From Truepera radiovictrix DSM 17093 (GTDB lineage Bacteria; Deinococcota; Deinococci; Deinococcales; Trueperaceae): DNA of 64,000 nt. Each line of letters opens with the position of its first letter. The stretch's first letter is position 1. The stretch is taken from positions 3,043,001-3,107,000 of the forward strand of contig NC_014221.1 of the NCBI RefSeq assembly GCF_000092425.1, written 5' to 3'. Positions 4,304 through 42,734 of this stretch are shown piece after piece. A program made the translations under genes and the position numbers. Under the pieces are notes generated by a model that searched no databases, was not told the DNA's origin, and was given only the letters and a program-made list of their open reading frames with translations.

Positions 4304-6270
4304 TGGCGATTGGCAGACACCCCCTCCCGCAAACCCCCAGTCAGCGCGCCCTCCTCAAACGCCCAACGGCCGAGACGGGTTTGTGGAGCTGGCTCACCAC
4401 CGTCGACCACAAACGCCTCGGCATCCTCTACTTTCTGACCACCTTTACCTTTTTTATCCTGGGTAGCGTCGAAGCCTTTATCATCCGCTTGCAGCTCGCC
4501 GCCCCCACGCAGCAGCTCGTCTCCCCCGACCTTTACAACCAGCTCTTTACCGTCCACGGCGTGACGATGATCTTTCTCGCCGTCATGCCCCTCGGCACGG
4601 CTTTCGCCAACTACTTCGTGCCGCTACAGATCGGCGCGCGCGACCTCGCCTTCCCGCGCCTCAACGCCTTCGGGTACTGGGCGTATGTGGCGGGCGGGCT
4701 GATCCTCTACTCGAGCTTTTTTCTGGGGGGCGCCCCTGACGCGGGCTGGTTCGCCTACGCCCCCATGACCCTGCGTGAGCATAGCCCCACCGCCGGCATC
4801 GACTTCTACGTCGTCGGCCTTCTCATCAGCGGGATCGGCACGCTCGTGACCGCCATGAACCTGATCGTCACGATCATCAACATGCGCGCTCCGGGGATGA
4901 GCATGATGCGCATGCCGCTCTTTCCCTGGATGATGCTGGTGACCTCGTTCCTGGTCATCTTCGCCTTTCCGCCCCTGACGATCGCGCTCATCCAGCTGCT
5001 CATGGACCGCACCTTCGGAACGCTCTTTTTCAACCCCGCAGCGGGCGGGCTGCCGATCTTGTGGCAGCACCTCTTCTGGATCTTCGGTCACCCGGAGGTC
5101 TACATCGTCATCTTGCCCGCGTTTGGCATTATCAGCGAGGTCATCCCGACGTTTTCGCGCAAACCGCTCTTCGGCTACCCGCTGGTGGTTCTGGCGGGGA
5201 TCTTCATCGGCTTTATGGGCTTTGCGGTCTGGAGCCACCACATGTTCACCACCGGCCTAGGCCCGATGGCGAACGCCGCCTTTGCCATTACAAGCTTTAT
5301 CATCGCCATCCCGACCGGGGTCAAGATCTTTAACTGGATCGCCACCATGTGGGCGGGGCGCATCTGGTTCACCACCGCCATGCTCTTCGCCGTCGCCTTT
5401 ATCTTTACCTTTACGCTGGGGGGCATTACGGGGATCATGGTCGCGGTCCCGCCCTTTGACGCTCAGGCCCAGGACTCGTACTTCGTGGTGGCGCACTTTC
5501 ACTACGTGATGGGGGGCGGGGCGCTCCTGTCGTTTTTTGCGGGCATCTACTACTGGTTTCCCAAGATGACGGGGCGGCTCCTCAGCGAGCGGCTCGGCCG
5601 CTGGGTGTTCGCGCTCGTCGTGGGCGGCTTTCATCTGGTCTTTTTCCCGCAGCACTTTCTCGGCCTCAACGGGATGCCGCGCCGCATCCAGACCTACGAA
5701 GCGGGCATCGGTTGGGACCTCTACAACTTCATCTCGACCATCGGGGTCTTTGTCCTCGGGGCGGGCGTGCTCATCTTTATCTACAGCCTGCTGCGCGACC
5801 TGCGCCACGGCGAACTCGCCGGCGACGACCCGTGGGACGGGCGGACGCTCGAGTGGAGCATCCCCTCCCCCCCACCGCACTACGACTTCGCCGACCTGCC
5901 CGTCGTCAAAGACCGCGACCCCGTTTGGCTCGCCAAGCATCCCGAGCTCGTCGAGCGCCGCGACCCCTTGTCCGAAGGGGCCGACGACGACGCCGACACG
6001 CCCAACACCCCCGACGAGGCCGACCTCAGCGTCCACCTCCCGGGGCAGTCGTGGTACCCCTTTCTGGCCTCCGTGGGGCTTTTCGTGGGCGGCTTTGCGC
6101 TCATCTACCACAACTGGCTCCTCGGCACCCTGGCGCTCGGCTTTATCACCCTCTGCATCTACGCGTGGGCCTTCGAGGGGGTCGGCGGCACCTACATCAC
6201 GATCGACCCCGAGCGCCGTAAAACCGGCCTCGCAGCGATCGCAGCCAAACAGACGAAAGGGGCGTCATGA
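4303..6270 (+). CDS. ctaD: Cytochrome c oxidase subunit I (A1 type, extended C-terminus)
   Basis: The 655-residue catalytic subunit of the proton-pumping oxidase shows all expected ligands: low-spin heme a H85 and H400, CuB H263 with the cross-linked Y267 in GHPEVY, H312 and H313, and heme a3 H398. The GHPEVY glutamate (E265) and K341 in the K channel mark an A1-type enzyme. After the core, a charged linker leads to two extra helices (about residues 585-635) resembling the first helices of subunit III, as in caa3 oxidases whose subunit III has only five helices. The ATG follows the third tandem AGGAGA. Confidence 0.97.
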   Translation: MAIGRHPLPQTPSQRALLKRPTAETGLWSWLTTVDHKRLGILYFLTTFTFFILGSVEAFIIRLQLAAPTQQLVSPDLYNQLFTVHGVTMIFLAVMPLGTAFANYFVPLQIGARDLAFPRLNAFGYWAYVAGGLILYSSFFLGGAPDAGWFAYAPMTLREHSPTAGIDFYVVGLLISGIGTLVTAMNLIVTIINMRAPGMSMMRMPLFPWMMLVTSFLVIFAFPPLTIALIQLLMDRTFGTLFFNPAAGGLPILWQHLFWIFGHPEVYIVILPAFGIISEVIPTFSRKPLFGYPLVVLAGIFIGFMGFAVWSHHMFTTGLGPMANAAFAITSFIIAIPTGVKIFNWIATMWAGRIWFTTAMLFAVAFIFTFTLGGITGIMVAVPPFDAQAQDSYFVVAHFHYVMGGGALLSFFAGIYYWFPKMTGRLLSERLGRWVFALVVGGFHLVFFPQHFLGLNGMPRRIQTYEAGIGWDLYNFISTIGVFVLGAGVLIFIYSLLRDLRHGELAGDDPWDGRTLEWSIPSPPPHYDFADLPVVKDRDPVWLAKHPELVERRDPLSEGADDDADTPNTPDEADLSVHLPGQSWYPFLASVGLFVGGFALIYHNWLLGTLALGFITLCIYAWAFEGVGGTYITIDPERRKTGLAAIAAKQTKGAS

Positions 6271-32686: not shown

Positions 32687-33076
32687 ATGGATAAGGTCAC
32701 CACCACAAGAGCGCACGCCAGCTCGGAGGTCAGCGTACCGAGAAGATTTTCTACGAAGTACAAACTCGCTATCCTCGCAGAGATCGAGGCGGCCAACGAG
32801 AAGGGAGAGGTTGGACAGATTCTCCGTCGTGAAGGGTTGTACTCCTCGCTCATCTCGGAGTGGCGCAAGCAACGAGAGCGGGGTGCACTCGAAGCGATGA
32901 GCGGCAAGCAGCGCGGCCCCACGAAGGACAAGCTTGCTGCTGAGAATAAGCGGTTGCGAGAGCGACTTGCCCAGCTAGAGGAGCGTTTGGGTACGGTCGA
33001 GGAGTTGATTGATGCCCAGGGAAACGCTTTTGCGCTCTTGCAGGAGATGTCCCGCAAGAGCGACGGGGCGAAATGA
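32687..33076 (+). CDS. IS3-family transposase orfA
   Basis: The 129-residue protein has an HTH domain (FSTKYKLAILAEIEAAN, RREGLYSSLISEWRKQ) and a leucine-rich coiled coil (AAENKRLRERLAQLEERLG), the orfA layout of IS3 elements. Its end overlaps orfB (ATGA). It looks intact, but orfB is broken, so the element is probably immobile by itself. Confidence 0.85.
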   Translation: MDKVTTTRAHASSEVSVPRRFSTKYKLAILAEIEAANEKGEVGQILRREGLYSSLISEWRKQRERGALEAMSGKQRGPTKDKLAAENKRLRERLAQLEERLGTVEELIDAQGNAFALLQEMSRKSDGAK

Positions 33077-33498
33077 ATGAAATTTTGGACGAGCAAGTGA
33101 AACGCTTCGCCCCTCGTGTTGGCACCTTGCGTGCCTGTCGGGCGTTCGGTGTGAACCCGAGGACGTTTCGCCATCGTCGCCAAGCACAAAAAGGCCAACT
33201 GCCAATTAGGAAGTCGAGTCCACACAAGCCGCGCTCGCCGCATCCGGCCGCGCTCACCACTGAGGAGAGGCGGCAGATTCTCGGGGTCTTATGCTCCGAG
33301 CGCTTCTGTGACCTTCCTCCTGCGCAGGTGTTCAACACCTTGCTCGACGAAGGAACGCACCTCTGTTCAGTCCGGCAGATGTACCGTTTACTGGCAGAAC
33401 ACGGCCTTTTGTTCGAGCGGCGTCGTGGCGGTCATTTCCGTCGTGGTCTATACCCCATTCCACAACTCGAGGCAGCCGCGCCCGATCAGTGCTGGACT

Positions 33499-33540
33499 AG
33501 GTCATCGCCACTAGGCGAAGGGTCTAGTGACCCTAACCTG
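33499..33540 (+). repeat. Double-hairpin mini-element, copy 1 (42 nt)
   Basis: An outer stem AGGT/ACCT (33499-33502 with 33536-33539) encloses hairpin CGCC-ACTA-GGCG (33506-33517) and hairpin GGGTC-TAGT-GACCC (33520-33533). The two loops ACTA and TAGT are complementary. It is inserted in frame in orfB, adding 14 codons between CWT and WDITKL. Confidence 0.7.
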
Positions 33541-33975
33541 TGGGATATCACGAAGTTGCCAGGTTCTGCGAGGGGTGTCCATTACCACCTCTACACCGTT
33601 CTGGATATCTTCAGCCGGGAAGTGGTGGGGTGGATTGCGGAGCACGATACGGTGGCTACGCGTGAATCCGAGATGGTCGCACGTGAGCTCATCGACAAGA
33701 GCTGTCAGCGCGAAGGGATCAATCCCAACCAGCTCACCCTCCACGCCGACCGCGGCTCACCCATGGTGGCGCGTAGCATGGCCGACCTGCTAGACGAGTT
33801 AGGTGTTTACAAAAGTCACTCCAGGCCGCGCCTCTCAAACGACAACCCCTACAGCGAAGCACAGTTCAAAACGCTAAAGTACCGCCCTGACTATCCGCAG
33901 CGTTTCGAGTCTATCCAGACTGCCCACAACTGATGCCGAGAGTTCTTCGACTGGTACAGCTACAGCCACTACCAC

Positions 33976-34774: not shown

Positions 34775-35299
34775 CTACTTGAAAACGACCCGAACGGGTG
34801 TACCCCCGGCGTAATTCACCCTGGACGGACTTTGTCCCTGAAACTGCCTCACTGGTTCAATAGAGAACTCTCCCGGCACGGTCGAGGTAAAGGTAAAGGT
34901 ATGTTCAAAGAGGCGAGTCTCTCCGCGTTGAACTATGAACGTACCGTACTCTCTGACATGGTGCGTGCCGGCTAGCAGCTGAAATTCAGAAGGTAGAGGT
35001 AGGTCTTCATCTCTACATAAGCCGCCTCTAACTTCTGAAGCCGCTTCACCGAAGAATACGCAGGCACCCAATTTTAGGTCTTCGTGAACGTTCTCAGTTA
35101 AGCGGCTTTGACTAGGCAGCTCGAACCCACCTGTGAGGGTAACGGTGACAGAATCTCCTACCTTGGTCTGCGTTTTATCTGCTTCCGCAGTCAGCGCAAT
35201 CTCAAACCCATCGTATCTCTCCGGGTCGGGATTGAAAAACCCGCAGGCGGCTAGCAGGATGCAGAACACTGAGAGGTACAAGTACAAAGATAGTCTCAT
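34775..35299 (-). CDS. Small two-cysteine lipoprotein (module partner, copy 1)
   Basis: The 174-residue lipoprotein has lipobox LLAAC at about residue 19. The mature part is beta-rich and Ig-like: VGDSVTVTLTGGFELPSQSRLTE, then LGACVFF...GGLCRDEDLPLPSEF with two conserved cysteines (probably a disulfide), then RGETRLFEHTFTFTSTVPGEF. Three relatives are in this window. It begins 13 nt after the metalloprotease gene, so the two form an operon. No known family recognised; function unknown. Confidence 0.8.
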   Translation of the reverse strand: MRLSLYLYLSVFCILLAACGFFNPDPERYDGFEIALTAEADKTQTKVGDSVTVTLTGGFELPSQSRLTENVHEDLKLGACVFFGEAASEVRGGLCRDEDLPLPSEFQLLAGTHHVREYGTFIVQRGETRLFEHTFTFTSTVPGEFSIEPVRQFQGQSPSRVNYAGGTPVRVVFK

Positions 35300-35312: not shown

Positions 35313-37144
35313 CTACTTGTCGCACATGCCGGTAACGGCTAACGTGTTGTACTTAACGACAGAGCAGTACAAATCTCGTTGACTGCTGCTGAGCTTGGGG
35401 CTGATGCGGTTCTTGAACATGTACGTGAAGTTTTCTACAGGATGAGCATTGTAGAAATGGCTGGCAACCCTTGCGTAGCGTTGTTTCACGGATTCTAAGC
35501 TGTTGTAATACTTGACTGCATCAGCATCCGTGTCGGGAATCAAGTTCTGCGCGTTCGTATTGCTTAGAGCATGAGCGTCCGTCACATCCCAAAGGTACTG
35601 AGCGACACGTCCGGGAACCGCTGCGCCTGCTGGTTTGCTGCTAATGGAAGGTTTAACTTCAGGATCAAAAAGGTTGGTATCACGCCATCTATTACTTAGA
35701 ACCCTGGTCGTAATAGATTCAAACCAGAGAGCGAAACCCTCCAACATACCCGCACAGCCGTCCACATGCGACCATACACTCCATCCTGTCGAACCGTAGC
35801 ACCACGGAAAATCCGAGAGACCTGTTTTTACAGCCTTTTCGTGAGAACTTTGGTATGCACTTTCCCCAAGCATCCGGCGGTAGTACACCTCATGACCATA
35901 TTCATGAAAGAGCGTAGGGTCATAAGCTCCATCAGCGGGTTTTATGTACATGCGACCATAGTACGCACGCGAACGGGGAATAATCTGGCTGCTGTCCGGG
36001 TAAACGACCGATAGGGGAAAGGTGTCGTACAGACCATGGGAAGTTCGTTCCCAGTCATGGACTCTATTCACTTTGTAGAAAACGCGCTGGGCAAGCTGAA
36101 TGTTGCTGGCCGAGTTTTTAGTCGAAGCGTACACGGTCGTGTTTCTAAGGCTTGTCGGGGTGTTGATGCGACCGGAGGGGGAGACGACTTGTGTTTGCCA
36201 AGTGCGTAAGGGATAGGTATCTATCGTCCGGGTGTGTATATAGATACCCGTTTGCGTCCAAGCCAAAATCTTAAACGTTGTCGTTTTCTCGCAGCCGGCG
36301 GTGAACTCGAGTGCCCCTCCTGCCCCAACATGGCGCGTTTGGTTAAGAGTTCTGTGAGAAGAAGGGGCGGTCATATCGCCGGAGATATAGACGCGCGTCG
36401 AGCTTGGGAGCGGTTGAAAGCTTCCGTCAACATAGGACTTGAGAAAGACTTTCGTCAATGCTCTTGTGCAGCTAGCGGCAGTTGAGCTTGGCTCGCCCGT
36501 ACCTACCTGCGAACCGGCATTAGAAACGATGATGTCCATAGGCTCGCCCAAGTTGCCGTTCTCTTCGGGGAACCGAACGTCGTTGACGATGACGTCGCCC
36601 GGTTTGTCGCTGCCATACACTTCGAGCGCGTCCAAACCATCAAGGACAGGGAGCGAGGCGTAATACTCGTCGAGGGTGACAGGTTCACCGATGATGGTTT
36701 CGGCTTGAGCTTGAAAGTCACTCTCGTGTGACGGTTCAAAGTTGACGTAAAGCACGTTCGCAGCCGTGCCCTCTGCAAAAGAGGCGCGGACGCTCAGCAT
36801 ATTGAGTTGCGCTTTGGTCGCCCTACCGCTCAGGCGCACCTCCGCGCGACCGGCTCCATCGGAGGTAACGGAAGCTTCGCTGATGCTCGGGATGATGCCC
36901 CAGTTGTTGATGTCGAGTGTGATGGTGTCGTTGGGGGGGAAGTCCTCGAGCTCGACGATGATGGGGAACGAATTGCCGAGCGGGATGCTCTCCCGCAGCG
37001 CTTCAACCGTCAAAGTAGGCAGTGCAGCTTCTTCTCGAGCAGCGCTAAACTCCTGCGGCACACTCGGCTCGGTCGTCCGGCAGCCCGCCAATACCAATAG
37101 AACGCCTATGTATGTATGTATGTATGTATGTATCTCGGCTTCAT
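35313..37144 (-). CDS. HExxH lipoprotein metalloprotease, copy 1 (phase-off in this sequence)
   Basis: The frame encodes a lipobox (LVLAGC), a beta-rich N-terminal half and a C-terminal gluzincin-like zinc site: HEYGHE (35889-35906) and a later Glu in GMLEGFALWFES. It is homologous throughout to the protein at 40807. The conserved ATGAAG start at 37144 is separated from this frame by six TATG units and runs into a stop after 12 codons; four or seven units would restore it. An in-frame ATG at 37205 would give a hydrophilic leader with no proper signal peptide. Probably a phase-variable surface protein; substrate unknown. Confidence 0.78.
37107..37133. repeat. (TATG)6 tetranucleotide repeat in the metalloprotease signal peptide
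   Basis: Six TATG units plus TAT, lying 4 codons after the conserved ATG on the minus strand. Slippage by one unit shifts the reading frame; four or seven units would be in frame. Confidence 0.95.
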
Positions 37145-37249: not shown

Positions 37250-37313
37250 AGTGTAGAGCAAAAGCAAGCGCCCTACCAGAGCAAACTCAGCAAAAACTTA
37301 ATCGTTTCTTAAC
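37250..37313 (-). promoter_or_regulatory. Promoter of metalloprotease copy 1: TTAAG direct repeat and TACACT box
   Basis: On the minus strand TTAAG-N6-TTAAG (37298-37313, 11-bp period) is followed 42 nt later by TACACT (37250-37255). The same two blocks, 41 nt apart, precede copy 2. An 11-bp direct repeat is the pattern bound by PhoB/OmpR-type regulators. Confidence 0.55.
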
Positions 37314-38318: not shown

Positions 38319-39353
38319 GTGACACGACGCGCCTACACGATCACGCTGATTCCAGGCGACGGCATCGGTCAAGAGGTCGTTCCCGCCGCCGAGCGCTTGC
38401 TCCGCGAGACGGGGCTCCCTTTAGAGATGCACTACGCCGAAGCCGGTTGGGACACCTTTCAAAAGGTCGGCAAAAGCGTCCCCGACGAGACCCTCGAGCG
38501 GGTCAAGGCCTCCGACGCGACGCTCGCCGGCGCCTTTACCAGCCCGAGCGGGTCGCAAAAGGTGCCGGGCTTTCAGGGGGCGATCCGCTACCTGCGCCGC
38601 ACCCTGGATCTGTTTGCCAACCTCCGCCCGACCAAGTCGCGCCCCATCCCCGGCTCCATGAAAAACGTCGACATGCTCATGGTCCGCGAGAACACCCAGG
38701 GGCTCTACGTCGAGCAGGAGCGGCGCTACGGCGACGTCGCGATCGCCGACTGCGTGATCACCAAAGGGGCCTCGGAGCGCATCGCCAAGGTGGCGCTCAA
38801 AGAGGCGCAGCGGCGGCGGCGCAAGCTCGCGGTGATCCACAAGGCCAACGTCTTGCCCCTTACCACGGGGCTCTTTTTAGAGACCGCGCTGGAGGCCGCC
38901 AAAGCCTTCCCCGAGGTCGAGACCTACGACATCATCGTCGACGCGGCGGCCATGAAGCTTGTGCGCGACCCGCAGAGCTTCGACGTGCTGGTCACCACCA
39001 ACTTGTTCGGCGACATCCTAAGCGACCTCATGGCGGGCCTCGTGGGGGGTTTAGGCCTCGCGCCGAGCGCGAACATCGGCGAGCGGACGGCCATCTTCGA
39101 ACCCGTCCACGGCTCCGCCCCCGACATCGCCGGCAAGGGCGTCGCCAACCCCGCCGCGACCTTCTTGACCGCCGCGATGATGCTCGACTACTTGGGCGAG
39201 GCGGCGACCGCCAAGCGCATCGACCGCGCCGTCGACACGGTTTTAGAGGAGGGGCCGCGCACCGCCGACCTGGGCGGCAAAGCCGACACAGAGGAGTTTA
39301 CGGACGCGGTCATCGAGGCGTTTAGGAGCCTCGCACCGCACGAAGCTGCGTAG
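38319..39353 (+). CDS. hicd: Homoisocitrate dehydrogenase
   Basis: The 344-residue beta-decarboxylating dehydrogenase is very similar, as I recall it, to the Thermus enzyme of the alpha-aminoadipate lysine route: [32 protein letters not shown] (substrate-choosing arginine region), [36 protein letters not shown], and [15 protein letters not shown]. It converts homoisocitrate to 2-oxoadipate with NAD. The GTG start has GAGGTGAACT in front. Other lysine genes are not in the window. Confidence 0.92.
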
Positions 39354-39387
39354 CGCCGACGGGCGACGGGACGCTGCGCCAAAGGCC

Positions 39388-39417
39388 CGCAGCCCCGCAC
39401 CAGCGCGCGGGGCTGCG
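39388..39417 (+). terminator. Terminator hairpin after hicd
   Basis: CGCAGCCCCGC (39388-39398) pairs perfectly with GCGGGGCTGCG (39407-39417), followed by TTGT. The stem is strong, the U tract poor. Confidence 0.65.
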
Positions 39418-39445
39418 TTGTCCCGACCTCTCACGGCGGCCCTAC

Positions 39446-40268
39446 TCAAAGAGAGCCTGAAACAGATGAGGACACAACCGAGGTCAAGAAAGGCTTGATG
39501 GATGTCGGCTCGACGCTCATAACGGACCTTCAAGCGGCGGAAACGGTTAAGCCATGAGCCAGTGCGCTCAATCACCCAACGGTAACGGCCCAAACGCTCG
39601 CTACTGTCGACTCCCTTACGGGCAATGCGGGGCGTGATAGAGCGTTTGCGCAGTTGATGACGACAGTTCCAGCTGTCATAGGCTTTGTCGGCGTGCAGCT
39701 TCTCGGGCCGCTTGCGAGGTCGTCCCCGTGGGCCTTTGATGGGTTCGATACGTTCTAACAGCTCGGCCAGCACCTGCGATTCATGCCGGTTTGCGCCGGT
39801 GAGAAGGGTGGCTAAGGGGATGCCCTGCCGCTCGACCACAACAGGGCGCTTCGTGCCCTGTTTGCCCCTATCCGCCTCCTTCGCCCCCCCTGGCGCGGGC
39901 ACACTAAAGCAGTCCACACAAGCACGTTCCCAATCGATCTGGTTTGCCTCCCCGAGCCTGTCGAGGAGCACCCGGTGAAGCCGATGCCAAACGCCTGCTT
40001 CCTGCCAGTCCCTAAGCCGTCGTCAGCACGTCACCCCACTGCCGCAGCCCATCTCCTGCAGCAGCAGCTCCCACGCAATGCCGCTCTTGAGCACGGACAA
40101 GATGCCCGTCGGCGCAGCACGGTCGGCAACTCGAGGGCGGCCCCCTTTGGGCTTGGCGGGCTCTTTGGGCAGTAGCGGTTCCATGACGTTCCACAGCGCA
40201 TCGGTTACTAAGGGCTTCGCCATGCGCTACTTTAGACGATCTTGCCATGAGGTTTTGAAAGGTGCTCT
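39446..40268 (-). mobile_element. IS5-family insertion sequence
   Basis: It holds one transposase gene of IS5 type. Ends are imprecise: AGAG-rich and AAAC-containing inverted blocks near 39450 and 40268, with CTA on both outer sides (39442-39444 and 40267-40269), the kind of 3-bp target copied by many IS5 elements. It lies directly beside the stop of the lipoprotein gene at 40271. Confidence 0.65.
39449..40223 (-). pseudogene. IS5-family transposase with in-frame nonsense codon
   Basis: The protein frame starts KPLVTDALWNVMEPLLP, has Asp in CVDCFSVPAPGG, Asp in LHADKAYDS, and Glu in RWVIERTGSWLNRFRRLK, the IS5 DDE set. A TGA at 40021-40023 replaces what should be Trp in the CWRRLRDWQ block; reading is otherwise continuous. 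There is no stop inside the element's left end: the frame runs on to 39243 into hicd antisense. Confidence 0.8.
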
Positions 40269-40270
40269 AA

Positions 40271-40816
40271 CTACTCGAAGAATATCTCGGTACGGAAGCC
40301 GTTAGCGAAATCTGGTGTGCCCCATTCACCTCTTACAAATCGCATGTTTGGAAAAAGGACGACTTTCCCGGCTTTTGTCGAGGTAAAGGTAAACTCGTGA
40401 ACCAAGTCACGGGTTTGTCCTCGTTTTACGACGACATCGCCGAGATCAGTTATGAACTTACTGCCGTTCAGCATGTTTAGGTGTGATGGAAGGGGGGTGT
40501 CGTGCTCTCCAGAGGAAAGACAGAAGCCTCTTGGGTCAACGACATGTTCTTCTTGCACATCCGAGGCAAAACACGCTCCAAGCAGGACGTTCTCTAGCAC
40601 TTGAGAAGGCACTCTGCTCTGACTATGCAAAACGAGGTCGGTCGTAAGCGTTACTGTTACGGGTTGGGCTATTTTAACAGTAGTTGCAGATACTTCCGCC
40701 GTCGGCGGAAGCACCCCTATAGAGTCGAACGCGTCTACGGACGGATTGCACGCACTGAGAAGAGCGGCAAGCAACAGCCAAGCAACTATTCTGACCTTTA
40801 CCTGACCTAATTGCAT
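40271..40816 (-). CDS. Small two-cysteine lipoprotein (module partner, copy 2)
   Basis: The 181-residue lipoprotein has lipobox LLSAC, then PVTVTLTTDLVLHSQSR, LGACFASDVQEEHVVDPRGFC (the conserved cysteine pair) and RGQTRDLVHEFTFTSTKAGKV. It is homologous to 34775-35299 and to the split copy. Its ATG lies inside the end of the metalloprotease gene (10-bp overlap), so expression is coupled. Unknown function; probably an exported partner or inhibitor of the protease (inference). Confidence 0.82.
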   Translation of the reverse strand: MQLGQVKVRIVAWLLLAALLSACNPSVDAFDSIGVLPPTAEVSATTVKIAQPVTVTLTTDLVLHSQSRVPSQVLENVLLGACFASDVQEEHVVDPRGFCLSSGEHDTPLPSHLNMLNGSKFITDLGDVVVKRGQTRDLVHEFTFTSTKAGKVVLFPNMRFVRGEWGTPDFANGFRTEIFFE

Positions 40817-42567
40817 GACGATACCGTAATTGTGTTAGCGACCATGACTCTCCTATGCGCCTCACAAGTTCCGAGTGACCTTGTATCCGGGCGGATGTTC
40901 TGCTGCCATACCTGATCAATGCTTGAGTGTGTAGCCATTCCGCGAAAAAAGTTTGCTACTCGCGTGTAGCGTAAATCCAGTTCCTCGTTTGTGCGCACAA
41001 ACGCATCACTGTCGTCATCTTTGAGACGAGCCTGCGAACCGCTATCGTCAGCGATGTCATAGAGATATGCAGCAACGTTTCCGGGCACGCGAGGCCCTGA
41101 AGGAGCGCTCGATGGTCGAAACTCGGTACGTCTGTACAACCGTGTATTGAGCCTCGCAGTCGCTACTTGCTCAAAAAACACTGCCCACCCCTCCAAAAGG
41201 CCAGCACAGTTACTCTCATCTCCCCAGAGAGACCAACCAAGCGCACCCAAACAGGCTGGATAACTTACAGGTAGCCCTGATACAGCCTCTTGATGAGCAC
41301 GGTTATACGCCGATGCTCCCATCATCCTTCGGTAGTAGACCTCGTGGCCGAACTCGTGGTAAATCCCAGCGTCATAGAGCGCAAAACCATCCGCGTACAT
41401 GATGCGCCCTATTCCAGCAAGGCTGCCTTTGGAACTAATGTACGGATAGAACGCATCGACAGGAAAGCTACTATAAACAGTGGACGCTTTTCGCTCCCAG
41501 TTGTAGACCTGATTGAGCCTAAAAAACAGTCTCTGCGACTTACGACTAAAAGAGCTAGCGGTTGATGGAGCCATCTGAATATTACGGTTACGCACAGTAT
41601 CCGCGTTAAAACTACCGGACGAGGCGCGCTCACTCTTCTTCCACATTACAGGCTTGTTGAAGACCTCACCTGTATGCATAGATATACCGGTACTGGTCCA
41701 AGCAAGAACTTTGAAGTGCAACTGAGTGCTGCAACCAAGGTAAAATTCTAAACGTCCGTTGTTTCCCACAAGCTTAACTTGTTCCCTATATGTGTGGTCA
41801 GAGATGTAAACACGCGTGTTGACAGGAAAATTCACAGCCTGACCATCGACCGTGGTCTTTAGATTAATGTAAGTGAGCCTCCTTGTACAATCCGTTGCCT
41901 GAGGCATCGCAACGCTCTCGGAACCGACATCAAACATAATGGCATCGAGCGGCTCTAGTTGCCCGTCCTCGCCCACCAGCCTTACGCCGTCTAAGACGAC
42001 ACCGGAAGCGTTCTCCTGATGTGCGTAAAGGTCTTGAGGTGTTTTAGCTACAGGCAGCGTTTGGTAGTAATCCTCTATAGTGATGGGAGATCCGATGATA
42101 TCGCCGTCGTCCGCTGCTTGGGCTTGAAACAAACCCTCTTGAGGGGGCTCGAAGTCTATGTACAACGTTCCCGTGACAACACCGCCATCTTCCATGCGGC
42201 CTATCGCGTCCAAAGAGACAAGCTTCGGTTGGTGAGCACTACCTCTCAACGATAATTCAGCGTAGCCAGCAGCGTTGGTCTGCAATGTCGTCGCATCGGT
42301 TCCAACTTGCATGCCGTCTGCGAACAGTTGCACCTGGATCTGCTCACCTGGAGGGGCATCCTTGACGACAACTCTGATAGGAAACGAATCGGCTAACGGA
42401 ATATCATCCCGCAGCGCCTCAATCGTCAAGCTTGGTAGAGGGGTTTCTGCTTGAGTTGGGTTGAACCGACGCTCCGTGGGGGAGATTGCGGTCGTTTTAC
42501 ACGCTATGAGTGCCACAACGACCAAGCAAAGACCTATGTATGTATGTATGTATCGCCCCAGCTTCAT
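40807..42567 (-). CDS. HExxH lipoprotein metalloprotease, copy 2 (phase-on)
   Basis: The 586-residue protein has a lipoprotein signal with lipobox ALIAC, an Ig-like N-terminal part (PLPSLTIEALRDDIPLADSFPI), and a zinc site HEFGHE (H404, E405, H408) with E459 in GLLEGWAVFFEQ as the probable third ligand, the gluzincin spacing. A Cys pair (PACLGALGWSLWGDESNC) around the active site is shared with copy 1. ATGAAG at 42567 is preceded by GGGGGTAAGG and the (TATG)4 repeat keeps it in frame. Base use is less GC-rich than the flanking genes. Confidence 0.85.
   Translation of the reverse strand: MKLGRYIHTYIGLCLVVVALIACKTTAISPTERRFNPTQAETPLPSLTIEALRDDIPLADSFPIRVVVKDAPPGEQIQVQLFADGMQVGTDATTLQTNAAGYAELSLRGSAHQPKLVSLDAIGRMEDGGVVTGTLYIDFEPPQEGLFQAQAADDGDIIGSPITIEDYYQTLPVAKTPQDLYAHQENASGVVLDGVRLVGEDGQLEPLDAIMFDVGSESVAMPQATDCTRRLTYINLKTTVDGQAVNFPVNTRVYISDHTYREQVKLVGNNGRLEFYLGCSTQLHFKVLAWTSTGISMHTGEVFNKPVMWKKSERASSGSFNADTVRNRNIQMAPSTASSFSRKSQRLFFRLNQVYNWERKASTVYSSFPVDAFYPYISSKGSLAGIGRIMYADGFALYDAGIYHEFGHEVYYRRMMGASAYNRAHQEAVSGLPVSYPACLGALGWSLWGDESNCAGLLEGWAVFFEQVATARLNTRLYRRTEFRPSSAPSGPRVPGNVAAYLYDIADDSGSQARLKDDDSDAFVRTNEELDLRYTRVANFFRGMATHSSIDQVWQQNIRPDTRSLGTCEAHRRVMVANTITVSSCN
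42535..42553. repeat. (TATG)4 tetranucleotide repeat in metalloprotease copy 2
   Basis: Four TATG units plus TAT, at the same place in the signal peptide as the six-unit repeat of copy 1. Here the ATG frame is open. Confidence 0.95.
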
Positions 42568-42671: not shown

Positions 42672-42734
42672 AGTGTAGAGCTACAGAGGCGACTTGTCCA
42701 CATCAGATTCACCAAAACCTTAATCATTCCTTAA
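42672..42734 (-). promoter_or_regulatory. Promoter of metalloprotease copy 2: TTAAG direct repeat and TACACT box
   Basis: On the minus strand TTAAG-N6-TTAAG (42719-42734) lies 41 nt before TACACT (42672-42677). The block matches the copy 1 promoter, including CAAAA next to the repeat. Confidence 0.55.

Follow-up and report, generated by a model that had tools for sequence, protein, structure and literature searches.

Pure CATA repeat arrays in the signal-peptide codons of two paralogous HExxH lipoprotein genes of Truepera radiovictrix suggest a pair of contingency loci

Phase variation by simple repeats has been studied mostly in host-adapted bacteria. Among described systems, the closest parallel to the loci reported here is the autA/autB pair of Neisseria meningitidis, secreted paralogues that each carry the same tetranucleotide array (AAGC) just behind the start codon, within the codons of the signal sequence, and whose reading frame is set by the number of units (PMC5118866). 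The autB arrays, of 2-10 units, vary among patient isolates, and OFF alleles of autA and autB are usually otherwise intact (PMC5118866). The tetranucleotide loci of Haemophilus influenzae are, like those of Truepera, intragenic arrays, many of them in surface-structure genes (PMC2651432), although they number about 12 to 14 per genome versus two in the part of the Truepera genome surveyed here. The Truepera loci differ from autA/autB in protein family (HExxH lipoproteins), in repeat unit (CATA instead of AAGC) and in organism (an environmental member of the Deinococcota), and are known here from the sequence of one genome. No prior report of phase variation in Truepera or Deinococcus was found in the open-access literature searched, the Deinococcus matches having been judged by title and abstract. 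While the type of switch is already known, its occurrence in a paralogue pair of the Deinococcota thus appears to be unreported in that literature.

The window analysed is a 64,000-nt stretch from T. radiovictrix, a free-living, radiation-resistant hot-spring bacterium whose genome is a single contig of 3,260,398 bp. Two paralogous two-gene operons are predicted in it, each opening with the gene of a putatively secreted lipoprotein that carries an HExxH (metalloprotease-like) motif, and each with a pure CATA array inside the predicted signal-peptide codons, right behind the start codon. The features of one of them, which includes the gene referred to as copy 2, are as follows.

40807..42567, minus strand: copy 2, predicted lipoprotein with HEFGH motif, 586 aa, start ATG at 42567
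42535..42553, minus strand: TATG x4.75 array ((CATA)4.75 on the coding strand), copy 2 codons 5-11, in frame (ON), 100% pure
40271..40816, minus strand: small lipoprotein gene after copy 2, starting within the end of copy 2 (10-nt overlap)
42672..42700, minus strand: promoter-like TGGACA-17-TACACT of copy 2, a weak consensus match; TCTACACT is common to copy 1

On the coding strand, copy 2 reads ATGAAGCTGGGGCGATA-(CATA)4-GGTCTTTGC, with (CATA)4 beginning at nucleotide 18 of the gene, a pure array of 19 nt, and GGTCTTTGC... continuing after it. Translation in frame starts with MKLGRYIHTYIGLCLVVVALIAC, contains a lipobox-like L-I-A-C and remains open for 586 codons; the predicted lipoprotein signal, LCLVVVALIAC, fits a hydrophobic stretch plus the lipobox [LVI][ASTVI][GAS]C when read by eye. 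The initial annotation, in which copy 2 was described as carrying four repeat units, in frame, together with a lipoprotein signal, is thus borne out by the array, the translation and the length of the open frame. At the other end of the gene, the stop region of copy 2 runs 10 nt into the small lipoprotein gene (40807-40816), suggesting translational coupling, and through this overlap a loss of frame may reach the second gene too.

The second operon likewise has a small lipoprotein gene behind the first gene, with a different number of units in its array.

35313..37144, minus strand: copy 1, paralogue of copy 2, ATG at 37144; with n = 6 units it reads MKPRYIHTYIHT followed by a stop
37107..37133, minus strand: TATG x6.75 array ((CATA)6.75 on the coding strand), copy 1, out of frame (OFF)
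34775..35299, minus strand: small lipoprotein gene behind copy 1, 34% identical to its paralogue at 40271-40816

The copy 1 array is a pure 27-nt tract, (CATA)6, near the gene start, and translation from ATG 37144 runs out of frame into a stop at codon 13. Beyond the array the frame runs for about 600 codons with no further stop, such that products of 607 or 611 aa would be encoded at n = 4 or 7, respectively, and the signal in the n = 4 frame (VLLVLAGC) matches the lipobox by eye. That copy 1 is OFF and still lacks a second stop over this length indicates that it went OFF recently or can return to ON; the intact frame is as expected of a switched-off rather than a decayed gene. A hexamer run (AGGTAA, 2.8 units, 34885-34901) inside the small lipoprotein gene of the same operon has an in-frame unit and is probably unremarkable.

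Both arrays are uninterrupted tandem repeats of a unit that is not a multiple of three, located in the first codons of their genes, and computed translations showed that a change in unit number toggles both copies between a full-length and a truncated product. Over the modelled range of n = 0-10, n = 1, 4, 7 and 10 gave a full-length product from both genes, and translation ended after 4 to 35 codons at every other n. The single genome available has 6 units in copy 1 and 4 in copy 2. In the mechanism that we propose, slipped-strand mispairing would add or remove one CATA unit and shift the frame; the signal peptide and the protein would be made at n = 1, 4, 7 and so on, an early stop would end translation at other values of n, and a change of three units would add or remove the tetrapeptide HTYI while keeping the signal peptide. 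Under this scheme the state captured in the T. radiovictrix genome would be ON for copy 2 (n = 4) and OFF for copy 1 (n = 6). We consider it probable that the two arrays form a pair of simple-sequence-repeat contingency loci that would switch secreted HExxH-containing lipoproteins; from the sequence we infer slippage in vivo, its reversibility, its independence at the two loci, protease activity, surface location and an adaptive role. If slippage acts separately on each array, the four expression states suggested in the initial annotation would be possible. Since the slippage rate falls with tract length and four units make a short tract, switching may be slow. Relative to the tetranucleotide cut-offs of 5 units used in Neisseria work (PMC5953494) and 3 units used in H. 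influenzae work (PMC2651432), copy 1 (6 units) passes the stricter one and copy 2 (4 units) lies below it and above the other.

The CATA motif was searched genome-wide, and other repeat motifs were surveyed in a sample of 864 kb (26% of the genome). CATA/TATG tracts of at least 3 units occur only at these two places in the 3.26-Mb genome, CATACATACATA is present in the whole genome only at the two arrays, and these were also the only pure tetranucleotide tracts of at least 4 units in the sample. A third-order Markov model of the genome predicts about 7e-6 TATG-class tracts of at least 16 nt per 3.26 Mb; dinucleotide shuffles of the window yielded zero occurrences of TATGTATGTATG, and (CATA)4 was absent from the other 110 genomes of the phylum searched. 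Sequencing error was considered as a source of the repeat counts and judged unlikely, the RQ-24T genome having been finished at 153x coverage with two platforms (PMC3072082), which makes a miscalled repeat unit improbable.

The proteins encoded by copies 1 and 2 are 37-39% identical. Over the 566 aligned codons downstream of the arrays, identity amounts to 38% for the protein, 48% for nucleotides, 34% for third positions and 30% for fourfold sites, and dS is saturated to the point that no estimate is possible. The two genes are, as initially described, diverged paralogues. The accompanying statement that the repeats sit at exactly the same place holds relative to the start and the signal peptide, but the offsets from the ATG are one codon apart (14 vs 17 nt). 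Drift would not easily account for a pure array of one and the same motif in both signal peptides, at matching positions and against a background of saturated silent sites; the array may have been retained, copied by local gene conversion or regrown independently, retention being the most economical. Selection on the repeat itself, as proposed in the initial annotation, is the best-supported reading in that the array appears to have outlived silent-site saturation, the unit counts differ, and the copies are in opposite states, with the OFF one otherwise undamaged; overall, the proposal is partly supported.

Different explanations of the arrays may nevertheless be offered. They might be short microsatellites whose mutation is too slow for bet hedging, copy 1 being a gene in early decay after a single recent frameshift and copy 2 the one that works. 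The low unit numbers, the low-GC and IS-rich setting of the arrays, the 49 pseudogenes of the genome (PMC3072082) and a Deinococcus radiophilus homologue devoid of the repeat (see below) would fit this scenario, which we nonetheless regard as unlikely. With silent sites diverged to saturation, neutral drift should have left at least one array impure, and no further lesion is seen in copy 1. Much less probable still is that the peptide YIHTYI has been conserved instead of the DNA repeat, or that a short and recent gene conversion homogenized the 5′ ends of the paralogues. YIHTYIG is indeed common to both open frames at the place of the array, and both genes share AGGATGAAGC before it; the codons, however, follow exact CATA periods in both copies, and the chance of drawing these six codons (TAC ATA CAT ACA TAC ATA) from the genes' own codon usage is about 3e-3 for copy 2 and 5e-4 for copy 1, which argues that the DNA rather than the peptide was kept. 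The repeat number is, moreover, unequal between the copies, the flanks of the arrays present no long identical tract, and a reading from the ATG of copy 1 does not yield the full peptide joined in frame to the lipoprotein.

It might also be argued that copy 1 is not OFF, on the grounds that at n = 6 no stop interrupts the frame between GTG 37205 and the end of the gene, such that translation from that GTG would read through the array to yield a 630-aa product. This we find very unlikely, for the GTG is not preceded by a Shine-Dalgarno-like sequence (gtaaaagtaaacagcgtgtgat), whereas ATG 37144 has GAGGGG at the proper distance of 9 nt upstream; the product would carry DEQDEAE shortly before its hydrophobic stretch, making for a poor signal peptide, and the ATG-AAG start is conserved between copy 1 and copy 2. 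Given the lack of a Shine-Dalgarno-like sequence and the acidic stretch, copy 1 is treated here as OFF, with some doubt, and a pair of contingency loci remains our preferred reading.

As to what the proteins may do, the motif HE[FY]GHEVYYR is found in copy 1, copy 2 and the D. radiophilus protein and is followed downstream in all three by EG[WF]A with a conserved E, which suggests a zinc metallopeptidase of the gluzincin type with this residue as putative third ligand. Searches of Pfam, NCBIfam and PDB sequences returned no supporting peptidase match (only Big_1 below the cut-off in Pfam, E 0.18), and a two-sequence AlphaFold model (pLDDT 36) was unusable for the fold. The earlier designation of these genes as metalloproteases is thus in keeping with the HExxH ... 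EG[WF]A motif but draws no support from the three databases.

No homologue outside T. radiovictrix was found in 41 related genomes, in 111 genomes of the phylum (searched with the protein, a profile and the D. radiophilus protein), in genome contigs, in viral contigs or in phages; the genome-contig scans used few short peptide patterns, and distant relatives may therefore have been missed. A plasmid search returned one distant homologue (25% identical, E=3e-22) on pRadio4 of Deinococcus radiophilus (NZ_CP086383.1). Together with a small lipoprotein gene, this unannotated gene takes up positions 1-1552 of the record and continues past the first base into the far end, and its crossing of that point is the probable reason for its absence from the gene table. 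Like the Truepera copies, it encodes a predicted lipoprotein with a HEYGHEVYYR motif, is preceded by a TTAAG-N6-TTAAG element (4773-4788 of the examined pRadio4 segment) and has behind it the small lipoprotein gene, which is weakly similar to the Truepera ones; in contrast to them, its signal-peptide codons harbor no tandem repeat. Homologues without a repeat at this place had been named in the initial annotation as evidence against selection on the repeat, and one such homologue thus exists, but at its level of identity it shows only that the repeat is not family-wide. Either the repeat is younger than the operon, or pRadio4 has lost it.

The element shared with D. radiophilus lies upstream of both Truepera operons.

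42719..42734, minus strand: TTAAG-N6-TTAAG upstream element of copy 2, a response-regulator-like direct repeat
37297..37312, minus strand: TTAAG-N6-TTAAG upstream element of copy 1

The TTAAG direct repeat has an 11-bp period, and the N6 spacing accounts for 27 of the 58 genome matches with spacers of 0-25 nt, palindromic sites being scored on both strands. The element was also observed upstream of several genes predicted by eye to encode lipoproteins or envelope proteins, and of glmM-like and exbB/tolQ-like genes. Collectively, these sites have the look of an envelope-gene regulon under a response regulator, and a two-component-type regulator is likely; if such a regulator acts, a regulated promoter would be combined with a random frame switch in these operons.

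The genes of both operons have a G+C content of 50-54%, compared to 66.7% for the window, and transposase genes are found nearby (HTH_Tnp_1/rve, 32687-33933; DDE_Tnp_1, 39243-39971), both of which are consistent with the operons being acquired DNA. Between the two operons are ThiF-family and isocitrate/isopropylmalate dehydrogenase genes of normal G+C. A fuller reading, which we put forward tentatively and with rather more doubt than confidence, is that of a repeat-based contingency system in the Deinococcota, whereby an environmental, radiation-resistant bacterium would switch two secreted lipoprotein proteases randomly and independently, possibly along with the small lipoproteins encoded behind them, the repeat having been gained after the genes arrived on mobile, low-GC DNA. 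If true, the mechanism would have uses beyond host immunity, such as coping with phage, predators or a changing nutrient supply, and the pair would offer a non-pathogenic two-locus system in which the independence of switching is directly measurable.

Elsewhere in the genome, four tandem octamers, CCACACGA, were noted in the leader of an rpoD-like primary-type sigma-70 gene, about 20 nt before its start codon (genome 3219710 onwards; segment coordinates 2711-2745), a run that is possibly a length-variable regulatory repeat.
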